Source: Rhodospirillaceae bacterium
GTDB lineage: Bacteria > Pseudomonadota > Alphaproteobacteria > Rhodospirillales > Rhodospirillaceae
Assembly: GCA_029245025.1 (NCBI GenBank)
Contig: JAQWQC010000006.1
Coordinates: forward strand, 124,001-188,000
Direction: 5' to 3'
DNA length: 64,000 nucleotides
Part shown: positions 6,340 through 54,517 of the stretch, one piece after another
Numbering within the stretch: the first letter of the stretch is position 1
Layout of the letters: the number at the start of each line of letters is the position of its first letter
Program-made: the position numbers and the translations under genes
The notes under the pieces: model-generated
Database searches by the model: none
The model's input: the letters and a program-made list of their open reading frames with translations, nothing else
Told to the model about the DNA's origin: nothing

Positions 6340-7388
6340 CCCTCAAAGACTTTGTGGAGGCAGTTGGCAGCAATCTCCGTGTCGTACTTTTCTTGCGCTT
6401 GAGATTGGGCACGGGCCCCCATCGACGCGCAGAGAGCGGGGTCTTGTTGCAATTGCATCAGACTGCCATACCACTCGTCTGCAGTGTTGCAGTGAAAACC
6501 AGTTCCACCCTGCGTCACCAGGTCATTTGCAATACCGACAGGAGACACGAGCGCCGGCTTTCCTGCGGCCATGTATTGAATGATTTTGTAACCACTTTTC
6601 CCTTGATTCCACTCCGTATCTTGTAACGGACAAATACCCACAGTCACTTCAGAAAAGAAATCGACTTCGCCAGATTCGCTCCACGGCAACCGATCAGCCA
6701 TAATGTCTTGGGCTGCGTCGTCGGCCCCACACAAAAGGAAACGAGACCCCGTCTCAGCCAAGAACTTCTCAAGCGGCTTCCGAATCAACGGCAAAGATTG
6801 TGTAGCTGTAACCGGGGTGCCAATCCAACCAACCGTGAAGGTCTTGGGCGCCCGCACTGCAGTTTTAAGTCGGGTGACGTCCACGGCGCTGGGTATCAGC
6901 GTCACTGAGTCAGCTCCGGAATTTCTGGCGTATTGCTCGAGCGTAGGATTACCAACAATCACAGCAGCCGCGTGACGCATAAGCGCTTCGATTTTGCCTG
7001 CGAACGCACCGCGGATGAGGTATGATCCTGCGTTTTTGTAATACAGGTGGTGGGCATCATCAAAATCGACAACAATCGGCTTTCCTGACAACAAAATTTT
7101 CTCGAGCACAAAAGGGAGGAACGGCAACACCTCCCTCTGTAACCAAATTACATCTACATCCCCTTTACGCAGCACACGCAAGAGACGGTTGATGAGAGAT
7201 GCAGCGACGGTAACCGAAGACCGAGTTCCATGAGCATATAGGCAAGTTAGGTACTCCCGTGGCAGCAACGGCTGCACTTCTACACGCAAACCCATTCGCT
7301 CAAGATACGGCACATATTGCAGAAACCGTACGCGGCTGCTGGCACCCATCCGATCATACCTGGTGAGAGCGAGGACAGAAATCGTCAT
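6318..7388 (-). CDS. glycosyltransferase, GT4-like; start trimmed to MTISVLALTRYDRMGASSRVRF
   Basis: Two-domain GT-B-like translation, GWIGTPVTATQ, SGYKIIQYMAAGKPALVSPVG. Confidence 0.8.
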   Translation of the reverse strand: MTISVLALTRYDRMGASSRVRFLQYVPYLERMGLRVEVQPLLPREYLTCLYAHGTRSSVTVAASLINRLLRVLRKGDVDVIWLQREVLPFLPFVLEKILLSGKPIVVDFDDAHHLYYKNAGSYLIRGAFAGKIEALMRHAAAVIVGNPTLEQYARNSGADSVTLIPSAVDVTRLKTAVRAPKTFTVGWIGTPVTATQSLPLIRKPLEKFLAETGSRFLLCGADDAAQDIMADRLPWSESGEVDFFSEVTVGICPLQDTEWNQGKSGYKIIQYMAAGKPALVSPVGIANDLVTQGGTGFHCNTADEWYGSLMQLQQDPALCASMGARAQSQAQEKYDTEIAANCLHKVFEGCMGGQR

Positions 7389-49002: not shown

Positions 49003-50589
49003 ATGAGCGATCAGAATAAGCAGAACGGCAATGCGAAACCGGTGGTTCTTTGTATCCTCGACGGCTGGGGCCATAGAGAGGAGCGTGAGAACAACGCCAT
49101 CGCTTTGGCGGCTACTCCAACGTGGGATCGTTGGATGGCGGAGACTGGCCGCCCCCATGCTCTTGTAGAAACCAGCGGCCTTGATGTCGGTTTACCCGAT
49201 GGCCAGATGGGCAACTCTGAAGTCGGTCATATGAATATCGGCGCGGGCAGAGTCGCACTCCAAGATCTTCCGCAAATTGATGCCGCCATTGCAGACGAAA
49301 CCTTCACAACACGACCCGCACTATCGAATTTTATAGCAGCCTTAAAATCAAGCGGCGGCACGTGCCATTTGATGGGTCTGGTGTCTCCAGGAGGGGTTCA
49401 CTCGCACCAAGATCATATGGTCGCCTTGGCCCAAGCCGCATCTGCGAGCGGCATTCCCGTCCGTATTCATGCGTTCTTGGATGGGCGCGATACGCCGCCA
49501 AAGTCAGCTGCGGATTACATGACCCAGTTCGTAGCAGATATTGAAAATTTAAAAGACGTATCTGTCGCGACCGTGTCAGGCCGGTACTACGCCATGGATC
49601 GGGATAATCGGTGGGATCGAGTCTCTCAGGCATACTCCATATTGGTGGACGGATCTGACGCGTCAGCGACCGACGCCTTAACCGCGATCAAAGACTCATA
49701 CGCAAACAACATCACAGACGAATTTGTCGAGCCCATAGCCATCTCTGGTTATGCCGGGATGGCGGACGGTGATGGCGTGATGATGGCGAATTTCCGTGCG
49801 GACCGGGCGCGCGAGATATTGTTCGCATTGGTCGAACCAGATTTCGAGGGGTTTGAACGCGACCGGGTGCCACAGTTTGCCGCAGCCTTGGGCATGACGG
49901 AGTACTCAACGGTCCTAGCAGCCCGAATGGCTGTGATGTTTCCAACCAAAGCGCCGCAGAACGGTCTAGGCCAGGTGGTCGCTGACGCAGGTTTAACTCA
50001 ACTCCGCATTGCGGAAACGGAAAAGTATGCGCACGTCACCTTCTTTTTAAATGGCGGCCTCGAGACCGAGTTCCCGGGCGAGCAGCGGATACTGGTGCCA
50101 AGTCCGAAAGTTACCACCTACGACCTACAACCCGCCATGTCAGCAACGAAAGTCACGGACAAACTGGTCGAAGCTATTGATTCCGGCGAATTCGATCTGA
50201 TTGTCGTGAATTACGCCAATGGTGACATGGTTGGGCACACCGGTGTTCTATCTGCCGCGATTAGTGCGGCAGAAACTATCGACGCGTGCCTGGCGCGATT
50301 AGAGAAGGCCGTGGAGAACGCGAGGGGCGCCATGCTGGTCACGGCTGACCATGGCAACTGTGAAATGATGGTCGACCCGCATACCAACGCGCCACACACC
50401 GCACATACCATCGGCACTGTGCCAGTGGTTCTGGTCAGCACGACACCACAATCTGGCCTTCATGACGGACGGCTGGCTGACCTCGCGCCTACAGTTCTTG
50501 ACCTAATGAACCTGCGCCAACCAGCGGCTATGACAGGACGCTCTCTCCTCCATCAGGATAACGATGCGCGGCGCCGTGCCGCCGAGTAA
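49003..50589 (+). CDS. gpmI: 2,3-bisphosphoglycerate-independent phosphoglycerate mutase
   Basis: VVLCILDGWGHREERENNAIALA, GQMGNSEVGHMNIGAGR, HAFLDGRDTPPKS. Confidence 0.97.
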   Translation: MSDQNKQNGNAKPVVLCILDGWGHREERENNAIALAATPTWDRWMAETGRPHALVETSGLDVGLPDGQMGNSEVGHMNIGAGRVALQDLPQIDAAIADETFTTRPALSNFIAALKSSGGTCHLMGLVSPGGVHSHQDHMVALAQAASASGIPVRIHAFLDGRDTPPKSAADYMTQFVADIENLKDVSVATVSGRYYAMDRDNRWDRVSQAYSILVDGSDASATDALTAIKDSYANNITDEFVEPIAISGYAGMADGDGVMMANFRADRAREILFALVEPDFEGFERDRVPQFAAALGMTEYSTVLAARMAVMFPTKAPQNGLGQVVADAGLTQLRIAETEKYAHVTFFLNGGLETEFPGEQRILVPSPKVTTYDLQPAMSATKVTDKLVEAIDSGEFDLIVVNYANGDMVGHTGVLSAAISAAETIDACLARLEKAVENARGAMLVTADHGNCEMMVDPHTNAPHTAHTIGTVPVVLVSTTPQSGLHDGRLADLAPTVLDLMNLRQPAAMTGRSLLHQDNDARRRAAE

Positions 50590-51859
50590 ATCAACCCAAC
50601 TTGCGTCACTTATTATTACTGGGGCGGCGTGGGCCTCAGTCTTCGTCCAACCAATTGTTGCTGCGGCTCAGGACGACCCGAGCGCGCCCCGAACCGCCGA
50701 CCTTCAAGCGATAGAGCAAGATCTCCAACGGGAACAGACAGTAAAAGATGACGCGACACGAATGGCAGAGCGGGCCGCTGCGGACACTGCCAAGGTCCAA
50801 AACGATATGGTCGAAGCCGCCCGCCGTATTCAAGACCGGGAACGCGCGCTAACAGATCTAGAAGCGCAATTGAGTCATCTAGAAGACCAACGTGCTGAAA
50901 TGGCCTCTGCGTTGGTCAACAAAGACGCCCAAATGCGCGAAGCGCTTCTTGCCCTTGAACGGCTCGCCTTGCGGCCGACGGATGCCTTACTCCTGCAACC
51001 GTTGCGACCCGCAGATGCCATTCGATCAGGCTTGGTCTTGTCGGCAGCCATTCCCGCTCTGACCGAAAACGCCGCCCGTTTACAGATTGAGCTTGAGGCG
51101 CTGTATACGACCCGCACCAAAATTGTTGGCCGGCGATCAACGTTCGCGTTGGAGACCCTAAGCCTTATTGAGGATCAGGCCCGTTTAGAAAAACTCCATG
51201 CAGAGAAAGCCTCCATGCAAAAGGGCTTTGAACGCCAGGCAACAGATTCAGAAGAACGAATCGCCGCCCTTGCCCGGGAGGCCAATGACCTACGTGAGCT
51301 CCTGGACAGTGTGATCGCTGAACGCAAACGCCGGGGTGAAGAAGAAGCGAAAAGAGTGGCACGAGCAGCTCCCATTCTTACACAGCCAGACGAAGCCACA
51401 CCCACCCCAGACATTGTGGCGGCTCGCCGACCAACACCGCCCGCACCCGCGCGGTCCTTCTCAAAAGCACGCGGAACATTGCCGTTTCCGGCAGAGGGGC
51501 GGTTATCACAGCGATATGGTGAAGGCACAGAAAGCGAAGTGCTCGCTAAAGGTATTGTCATTACAACCCGAACAGCCGCTCACGTGGTCTCTCCTTTTGA
51601 CGGAGTCGTTGCGTTCGCGGGTCCATTTCGCGGCTATGGCCAACTCTTGATCCTGGAACACAGCGAGGGATACCATACGCTTCTGGCTGGGATGAGCCGA
51701 CTGGATGGCGCCGTTGGACAGCGCGTTTTGGCTGGAGAACCGGTGGGTGTAATGTCACCGGACGGCGACCCCTCACTTTATGTTGAATTGCGGCGGGACG
51801 GCCAACCCATTAATCCGTTGCCTTGGCTGGCAACTCGAACCAATGAGAAGAGTGGATGA
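50564..51859 (+). CDS. envC: EnvC-like murein hydrolase activator (coiled coil + M23/LytM)
   Basis: Signal peptide, long coiled coil, C-term PFDGVVAFAGPFRGYGQLLILEHSEGYHTLLAGMSRLD; follows gpmI. Confidence 0.92.
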   Translation: MRGAVPPSKSTQLASLIITGAAWASVFVQPIVAAAQDDPSAPRTADLQAIEQDLQREQTVKDDATRMAERAAADTAKVQNDMVEAARRIQDRERALTDLEAQLSHLEDQRAEMASALVNKDAQMREALLALERLALRPTDALLLQPLRPADAIRSGLVLSAAIPALTENAARLQIELEALYTTRTKIVGRRSTFALETLSLIEDQARLEKLHAEKASMQKGFERQATDSEERIAALAREANDLRELLDSVIAERKRRGEEEAKRVARAAPILTQPDEATPTPDIVAARRPTPPAPARSFSKARGTLPFPAEGRLSQRYGEGTESEVLAKGIVITTRTAAHVVSPFDGVVAFAGPFRGYGQLLILEHSEGYHTLLAGMSRLDGAVGQRVLAGEPVGVMSPDGDPSLYVELRRDGQPINPLPWLATRTNEKSG

Positions 51860-53139
51860 CCCGTATTTATTTAGCTTCCTTTTGCGCTGTTGTGTTTGGT
51901 GCCTCGATGGCATTGACGGCAAATGCCGATGACAAATTCTCAGATGACACCTACCGACAGCTTGAGCTGTTTGGAAACGTCTTTGAGCGCGTTCGCAAGG
52001 ATTACGTTGAAAACATATCGGATCAAGATCTGATCGAAGCGGCAATCAACGGTATGCTGACATCGCTGGATCCGCACTCGAGCTTCCTGTCGGCAAAAAG
52101 CTTTGAAGACATGCAGGAGCAAACCAAGGGTGAATTTGGGGGCCTTGGCATTGAAGTCACCATGGAGAACGGCTTTGTAAAAGTGGTTACTCCCATTGAT
52201 GACACCCCGGCTTATCGCGCTGGCATGCAACCAAATGACTACATCACCACTATCGATGGCGATAGTGTTCTCGGCTTGACCCTTAACGACGCTGTCGAAT
52301 TGATGCGTGGCTTAGTTGATACGGACATCACAATCGGTGTCAGGCGGGAAGGTGCTGAGCCCTTTGATGTGACTCTCACACGCGCGGTGATCAAAATCCG
52401 GTCCGTGCGATATCGGGCGGAAGGCGATGTCGGATATATCCGCATCACCTCCTTCAATGAACAAACGCAACGCGGCCTGGAAGAAGGCATCGCCAGCATC
52501 AAAGAAGAGCTGGGCGGAACATTAAAAGGATACGTCCTAGATTTACGCAACAACCCTGGCGGCTTACTTGACCAAGCGGAGTCTGTGTCAGATTCCTTTT
52601 TAGAACGTGGTGAGATTGTCTCCACCCGCACGCGCTATAGTGAAGAGACGAAGCGCACAACGGCCAAGAAAGGTGACTTGGCCGATGGTATGCCTCTGGT
52701 GGTGTTGATCAATGATGGCTCGGCTTCAGCCTCAGAGATTGTCGCTGGGGCTCTGCAGGATCATGGCCGGGCTATTATTCTCGGCACCAAATCCTTCGGT
52801 AAAGGGTCTGTGCAGACCATTATTCCGATGCAAGACAACAGCGCGATGCGCTTGACCACAGCCCGATACTACACCCCCTCTGGGCGGTCTATTCAGGGCA
52901 CGGGGATTGAGCCAGATATCCTAGTCGCACCTGCAACAATTGAGCGACTGGCACAACGAGGCCAGCGCAGCGAAGCAAATTTGAGGGGATCCCTCGAGAA
53001 CGACACCGTGGATGACGGTATCGAGGACGAAGAGGCGACGAACGAGCGAACCACCCAAGATGTAGATGATTATCAACTCGCCCGCGCTATCGACCTCATT
53101 CAGGGCCTGGCCTTGTATCGCCAGACTTTGACGAACTAA
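51856..53139 (+). CDS. ctpA: C-terminal processing peptidase, S41 family
   Basis: GEFGGLGIEVTMENGFVKVVTPIDDTPAYRAGMQPNDYI (PDZ), LINDGSASASEIVAGALQDHGRAIILGTKSFGKGSVQT. Confidence 0.96.
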   Translation: MTRIYLASFCAVVFGASMALTANADDKFSDDTYRQLELFGNVFERVRKDYVENISDQDLIEAAINGMLTSLDPHSSFLSAKSFEDMQEQTKGEFGGLGIEVTMENGFVKVVTPIDDTPAYRAGMQPNDYITTIDGDSVLGLTLNDAVELMRGLVDTDITIGVRREGAEPFDVTLTRAVIKIRSVRYRAEGDVGYIRITSFNEQTQRGLEEGIASIKEELGGTLKGYVLDLRNNPGGLLDQAESVSDSFLERGEIVSTRTRYSEETKRTTAKKGDLADGMPLVVLINDGSASASEIVAGALQDHGRAIILGTKSFGKGSVQTIIPMQDNSAMRLTTARYYTPSGRSIQGTGIEPDILVAPATIERLAQRGQRSEANLRGSLENDTVDDGIEDEEATNERTTQDVDDYQLARAIDLIQGLALYRQTLTN

Positions 53140-53231
53140 GGCCCAAAATGGCGCTTATACTCGGTTAAGGCCCTGTTAACGGCGGTAGTACTTGCGTGAG
53201 GGAATGCGAGCTACCCAATACGGTGGTGGAG

Positions 53232-54025
53232 ATGACCATGGCCTTTTCTATTTCGTCAATAAAGGACCTTCTCAAGCGCAATGAGAAGGCGAAGGATCTA
53301 TTTGGCGCTGACGACGATGAAGATTTTTACGACGATGACATGTTCTATGATGAGTCGGACGGTGGGACTTTAGTTAGAAAAACTTTCATTTGGATCAGCG
53401 GCGCCTTAGGTCTTCTCATCGTTGGGTTTGTCACCACTGCGATTATCACCGCTGATGAGACAGCTGGACCGCTGACCGGGGTCATTCCGACAGAAATTGC
53501 ACAGACCGTCTCCGAAGACGGAGAAATTTTACAGATGATCGACATGCCCGAGGCAACGTCAAGCCAGCGTCGAGGCGCCTCAGCAACCCGTAGACCGAGC
53601 GCTTTGCCACCATTGTCATCAGACGCACCATCCGACGGTGCATCTATACCCATGCCGTCTAAAGCCATTGCTGACGACTCAACGGCAAAAACCTACTATA
53701 GATCATCTTCACGCCGACCTTGGTTGGGTGGCGGCGCTGAGCCCCCTGCTGGAACCCGCGGGACCCGTGAACAACCCATGACCAATGCTGCGCCGGGACG
53801 CGCGGGTACAAACAGCAACAGCGGATATCGTTATCGATGCGCGCCTTTAAAGCGGCCATTTATGGCTACCTGGATTACATTAATTGCTTGGCAAAATACC
53901 AAGGCAGCTCAGTCGCAGTGGCCTCTGCAAAGCCCGTCAACTTCGAGCACATCGTTTTGTGGCTGGACGAAGTCGTTCGTCGTGGTATCGCTGTGGAACC
54001 GACTTCCCAAGTCGTTATTCAATAG
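53232..54025 (+). pseudogene. degraded divergent polysaccharide deacetylase (YibQ-like)
   Basis: Intact N-terminal TM region (frame of ORF 53196), then fragments in other frames: ATADIVIDARL-stop (53812-53853 region) and KAAIYGYLDYINCLAKYQGSSVAVASAKPVNFEHIVLWLDEVVRRGIAVEPTSQVV (ends 54025); catalytic NodB core not found; syntenic slot gpmI-envC-ctpA-x-rppH. Confidence 0.78.
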
Positions 54026-54037
54026 CACAACGTCATC

Positions 54038-54517
54038 ATGACGGCGTCTGAAAAACCCTATCGCCGGGGCGTGGGTGTCGTCCTCATGAATAATGACGGT
54101 AAGGTATTTGTCGCCCAGCGGATCGACACAAGCGAGCCTGCATGGCAGTTGCCTCAGGGCGGCATTGATAAGGGTGAAGATCCGTATGCCGCCGCAATTC
54201 GCGAGCTTGAAGAAGAAACTGGGATTGTAAGCGCGACCCTCATGGCTGAAACAAATGATTGGCTCCGCTACGATTTCCCTCCTGACCTTCAGAGCAAAAT
54301 CTGGAAAGGCTGGTTCAGGGGCCAAGAGCAGAAATGGTACCTCATGCGTTTCACCGGCACCGACGATGAGATCAATTTGGATACAGAGCACCCTGAATTT
54401 TCGGCATGGAAATGGGCGGACTTTAAGACGGTCCCTGAGCTCATTGTCGATTTTAAACAGGGTCTCTATTGGCAGATCGTTGACGCTTTCTCAGATCACG
54501 TCAGGCCTGTTCTTTAG
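54038..54517 (+). CDS. rppH: RNA pyrophosphohydrolase (Nudix)
   Basis: YRRGVGVVLMNNDGKVFVAQRID, WQLPQGGIDKGEDPYAAAIRELEEETGI. Confidence 0.96.
   Translation: MTASEKPYRRGVGVVLMNNDGKVFVAQRIDTSEPAWQLPQGGIDKGEDPYAAAIRELEEETGIVSATLMAETNDWLRYDFPPDLQSKIWKGWFRGQEQKWYLMRFTGTDDEINLDTEHPEFSAWKWADFKTVPELIVDFKQGLYWQIVDAFSDHVRPVL

Follow-up and report, generated by a model that had tools for sequence, protein, structure and literature searches.

The window, as we call the whole 64,000-nucleotide stretch analysed here, carries a conserved gpmI-envC-ctpA-x-rppH block on the forward strand, in which the gene junctions overlap or nearly so (Table 1). The position between ctpA and rppH, hereafter the slot, holds a 281-aa ORF, and the question it raises is whether this ORF encodes a protein or is the wreck of a divergent polysaccharide deacetylase. 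An earlier note, made from the letters alone, proposed the latter: a real N-terminus running into an out-of-frame tail, with pieces of the deacetylase C-terminus in the other two frames. The ORF and both out-of-frame fragments are present in the ORF list and translations. The neighbouring ctpA is 97% identical to that of the sister genome G006, with a dN/dS of 0.03.

Table 1. The block around the slot, in positions of the window.
Feature	Position	Strand	Evidence or remark
gpmI	49003..50589	+	528-aa ORF; heads conserved block; name from gene order and the earlier note's reading
envC (LytM amidase activator), intact	50564..51859	+	PF01551 E 3.8e-19; 90% identity to G006
ctpA, intact	51856..53139	+	PF03572 E 1.6e-58; ATGA overlap with envC
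281-aa chimeric ORF as annotated	53196..54041	+	its TGA overlaps the rppH ATG
True N-terminal remnant: acidic cytoplasmic segment, TM helix, start of linker	53232..53802	+	in-frame alignment with G002–G004
842-bp deletion junction	53802..53803	+	alignment; removed remaining linker and most of PF04748 core
Short core fragment RVQTATADIVID, second frame	53803..53838	+	alignment with relatives
Secondary 2-bp deletion	53839..53840	+	alignment with relatives
C-terminal remnant, third frame (AFKAAIYGYLDYINCLAKYQ...SQVVIQ*)	53840..54025	+	PF04748 157-212; substitutions not in sister G006
rppH (Nudix), intact	54038..54517	+	PF00293 E 6.1e-26

In its own frame, the 281-aa ORF has no match in a Pfam search. 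Another frame, at 53840-54022, matches positions 157-212 of the polysaccharide deacetylase family PF04748 (E = 3.9e-4). This partial match reaches 20 bits against a cut-off of 27.5, as expected for a relic, whereas intact copies from congeners match positions 1-211 well above the cut-off. A profile of slot orthologues finds the same remnant in the genome through its positions 142-210 with E = 3e-13, so the resemblance to PF04748 is not due to chance and the suspected deacetylase C-terminus is genuine.

Syntenic loci in relatives were located by searching with the CtpA of the window. The slot anticipated in the earlier note is occupied there by intact PF04748 orthologues, of 541–550 aa in the congeners G002, G003 and G004 and 533 aa in G001. 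The annotated frame is homologous to these proteins (RRPWLGGG...TREQPM...APGRA) until about 53802, which confirms the proposed N-terminus and the wrong-frame tail but moves the start of the frame drift downstream from the suggested 53690. Compared with the genes of G002 and G003, an 842-bp stretch that starts in the linker and reaches the last third of the PF04748 domain is missing from the window, and the alignment of sister loci reveals a further deletion of 2 bp downstream (GATG--CGCGCC versus GATGAACGTGCC). Together, the two deletions, whose boundaries this alignment mapped, account for exactly the three frames noted earlier. The segments shared at the breakpoints (about 6 nt at the G005 junction and only 1–3 nt at that of the window) are too short to indicate a deletion mechanism.

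The C-terminal remnant has also decayed on the branch leading to the window. Its last 60 codons differ by 18 nonsynonymous changes between the window and G006, compared with 1 between G006 and G002, and the corresponding dN values are 0.147 and 0.008. With two disabling deletions and this excess of nonsynonymous change over the orthologue, the locus taken on its own is a pseudogene of the ordinary kind, and the 281-aa ORF is a chimera of the real N-terminus and an out-of-frame tail, as such probably not a protein. The stop-free N-terminal remnant may still be expressed as a short membrane fragment.

A single frame stays open between the true start and the ATG of rppH, and its N-terminal part contains no stops. 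These features could instead describe a functional membrane protein that is new, its tail refashioned and its translation coupled to that of rppH via the ATGA overlap, a reading that we consider improbable. The wrong-frame tail is open in G006 too, where the true C-terminal frame is undamaged, and its openness is thus a chance property of the sequence. In a neutral simulation, the N-terminus stays free of stops in 16–48% of runs at 110–40 substitutions, so that its integrity is no evidence for selection; simulation and sister comparison together dispose of the open ORF as a sign of selection. Moreover, N-terminal dN from the window to G002 or G003 is about twice the G002–G003 value or more, and in no relative found does the 281-aa frame occur intact or the 281-aa protein exist. 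An assembly or binning artefact is less probable still. The nearest relatives are metagenome-assembled genomes, and the lesions are known from assemblies alone, which lends this explanation some initial appeal. However, the decay substitutions and the separate 2-bp deletion lie outside the 842-bp junction, three loci in the genome of the window combine deletions with decayed stumps, and the same slot gene is damaged differently in other assemblies. We therefore retain the pseudogene reading.

The identity of the lost protein emerges from comparison with SddA (YibQ) of Escherichia coli, whose deacetylation of denuded strands at the septum was demonstrated only lately and which requires D31, D32, H78 and H123 (PMC12440217). 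SddA belongs to the same PF04748 family, and its gene order, gpmM-envC-sddA (PMC12440217), recalls the gpmI-envC-ctpA-x-rppH order found here, where envC stands in the same block as the relic. Unlike SddA, which has these four catalytic residues and a signal peptide, the alphaproteobacterial slot proteins examined lack the ligands; in this genus they have a long linker and are anchored by a TM helix, and the window copy is destroyed. At the Zn-ligand positions, the intact slot orthologues of this genus read EGET, EGEN or QGET, so that all four SddA ligands are replaced. The absence of the catalytic core, which the earlier note had emphasized, holds for the window, where the region for the two Asp and two His is missing, but it does not distinguish the window from its relatives, whose core is without all four ligands.

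This pattern extends across the class as sampled. Among 76 distinct slot proteins, including the truncated one of locus L040, 44 have none of the four ligands and 32 have one, while all 36 distinct unlinked copies carry the full D-D-H-H set (DDHH). A class-wide sample, which overlaps slightly with the former, contains no DDHH protein among 34 linked to ctpA or rppH (two of the four ligands at most), whereas the intact unlinked copies are DDHH in 29 of 29 cases. Overall, D-D-H-H occurs in 0 of about 100 sampled ctpA/rppH-linked PF04748 proteins of Alphaproteobacteria and in all 60-odd intact unlinked copies. In Omnitrophota, a ctpA neighbour (L082) has kept DDHH. Azospirillum brasilense is among the species with an undamaged slot gene. 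A literature search, with preprints and subscription papers outside its scope, returned no paper on this class-wide difference between linked and unlinked copies.

The best solved relative of the intact G003 slot protein is Atu2773 of Agrobacterium (PDB 2QV5; E 4.5e-32), the one envC-linked member whose lack of Zn ligands had been remarked by the SddA authors (PMC12440217). With BH1492 of Bacillus halodurans (PDB 2NLY) as the root, the tree separates a clade of slot proteins and Atu2773 (local support 0.88) from a clade of DDHH copies (0.87); the slot clade includes the intact congeners, the window remnant being too short for placement. Atu2773 likewise lacks all four ligands, yet it is intact, in contrast to the window pseudogene. 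BH1492 shares the PF04748 domain but coordinates Zn with two Asp and two His (PMC12440217), and in this respect resembles the paralogue beside trpE described below, not the slot protein. Pseudomonas aeruginosa has the same envC-ctpA-PF04748 order in its envC-ctpA-PA5135 operon; PA5135 is, however, called an SddA orthologue (PMC12569750), and our comparison with it is by gene order and description, not by ligands.

The core of the slot protein has a dN/dS of 0.017 between G002 and G003 (dS near saturation), which indicates that the ligand-less protein is kept by purifying selection where intact. Judged by sequence, the slot appears to encode a conserved pseudo-deacetylase, an inactive-looking SddA paralogue found throughout the Alphaproteobacteria as sampled, and the loss here would be of that paralogue, not of an enzyme. 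Its intact members look membrane-anchored: a short acidic stretch in the cytoplasm is followed by a single TM helix, a long linker and, in the periplasm, a PF04748 domain devoid of the Zn ligands. We assign a probability of about 0.85 to the relic, which sits at the ctpA–rppH position typical of this paralogue, being its pseudogene.

In four further genomes of the family, the slot gene carries deletions that differ from this one and arose independently. The G006 deletion runs from just past the ctpA stop into the core, and in G005 the rppH start is gone and the 30-odd N-terminal residues of the slot protein read in frame into RppH (L076, about 6340-6930). In G009, the TM half runs in frame into the final 45 residues; in G061, whose contig is shared with L040, the N-terminus is joined to mid-core. 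A ctpA+rppH tree places the window with G006 and G004 with G005 as sister pairs (100% support). The window and G006 each keep slot sequence missing from the other, and the slot of G004 is intact, so these losses are independent events. The G005 deletion yields a predicted slot-RppH fusion protein. No PF04748 gene was found in the family members G014 and G032; both are strongly reduced (1.3–1.4 Mb) and count for little. Their loci (L200, L201) keep the gpmI, envC, ctpA order, with an rppH-like gene in L201. In G004, which is 83% complete, envC consists of two overlapping pieces with a TGA (C1:143283-144480), possibly a frameshift or an assembly error.

Congeners have a second PF04748 copy, beside trpE, with the Zn ligands. 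The earlier note had raised the possibility of another deacetylase elsewhere; such a copy exists in the congeners but is deleted in the genome of the window (G000 in the family counts). A search of this genome with the DDHH protein gave no match. The trpE locus is present, with about 500 bp left between trpE and an FGE-like gene, compared with about 1.6 kb in G006, and about 20 C-terminal deacetylase residues remain beside trpE. At L106:5480-5977 (G000:C16), the DDHH gene and an adjoining cyclic-nucleotide-binding gene are both decayed remnants. A weak PF04748 match in the same genome (C20:330213, E 0.31) falls in an unrelated 330-aa ORF.

Across 54 family genomes of at least 90% completeness, both PF04748 copies are missing or remnants in G000, G009, G014 and G032, the slot alone is broken in G005, G006 and G061, and the DDHH copy alone in G076. 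By Fisher's test, which takes no account of phylogeny, slot loss and DDHH loss go together (p 5e-4; p 3e-3 if G014 and G032 are counted as one). The DDHH copy of G076 lies in two frames with a stop (L199:2361-3450, C20) beside an intact slot, reversing the usual order of loss.

A SPOR-domain lipoprotein follows the same pattern. SPOR domains bind denuded glycan strands, as is established (PMC12440217). The lipoprotein is full-length in the slot-intact congeners G001–G003, and among 55 family genomes it is found in 41 of 48 with an intact slot and in 0 of 7 that have lost it. The seven slot-intact exceptions, where it is missing, broken or unresolved, are G004, G071, G072, G076, G079, G081 and G082. 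At the syntenic place, the genome of the window keeps a short piece from the start of the gene and a C-terminus that is frameshifted and contains a stop (L225:1627-1905, G000:C23). The slot losers retain an intact EnvC and an intact Amidase_3 protein. The slot gene has been lost alongside other parts that act, or possibly act, on denuded glycan strands.

This correlation ignores kinship, and genome size is a real confounder: the loser genomes measure 2.9–3.5 Mb or 1.3–1.4 Mb, mostly smaller than their slot-intact relatives. Plain genome reduction, with the slot protein, the DDHH copy and the SPOR lipoprotein functionally unlinked, has about an even chance of explaining the losses, and it fits the observation that some small genomes (G079, G082) lack the SPOR lipoprotein only. 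On the other hand, G010, G019, G027 and G062 retain all three genes at 2.3–2.7 Mb, slot loss with an intact SPOR lipoprotein is a combination never seen in the 55 genomes, and the slot and DDHH losses are associated as above. Genome reduction does not conflict with the pseudogene reading; its only rival is the linked pathway considered next.

For the intact slot protein, we infer a septal and non-catalytic role, in which it would act with EnvC, the amidases and the DDHH SddA paralogue, perhaps as a binder of denuded glycan strands or a modulator of amidase activation. The slot gene of this lineage lost its core by deletion and acquired the 2-bp frameshift, and the DDHH paralogue and the SPOR lipoprotein have gone as well, while EnvC, CtpA, RppH and the amidase were retained; the SddA branch hence appears dispensable here. 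A functional link among the three losses is likewise conjectural. It is possible, though rather doubtful, that Alphaproteobacteria have a two-protein SddA system, an anchored pseudo-deacetylase fixed in the envC-ctpA-rppH block and a DDHH enzyme encoded elsewhere, forming one septal pathway with a SPOR lipoprotein that would bind denuded glycan strands, a pathway that is lost stepwise (SPOR lipoprotein, pseudo-deacetylase, enzyme). The genome of the window would then be a triple null arisen in nature, its EnvC-amidase machine intact.

The interest lies in the class-wide pair of dead and live deacetylases and in the nested losses, rather than in the locus. The oddity of Atu2773 is the norm among the sampled Alphaproteobacteria, where the slot copy is ligand-poor and the other copies are ligand-complete. 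Repeated natural losses, nested with that of the SPOR lipoprotein, point to a candidate partner, and the role of a dead deacetylase beside EnvC becomes a directly testable question.
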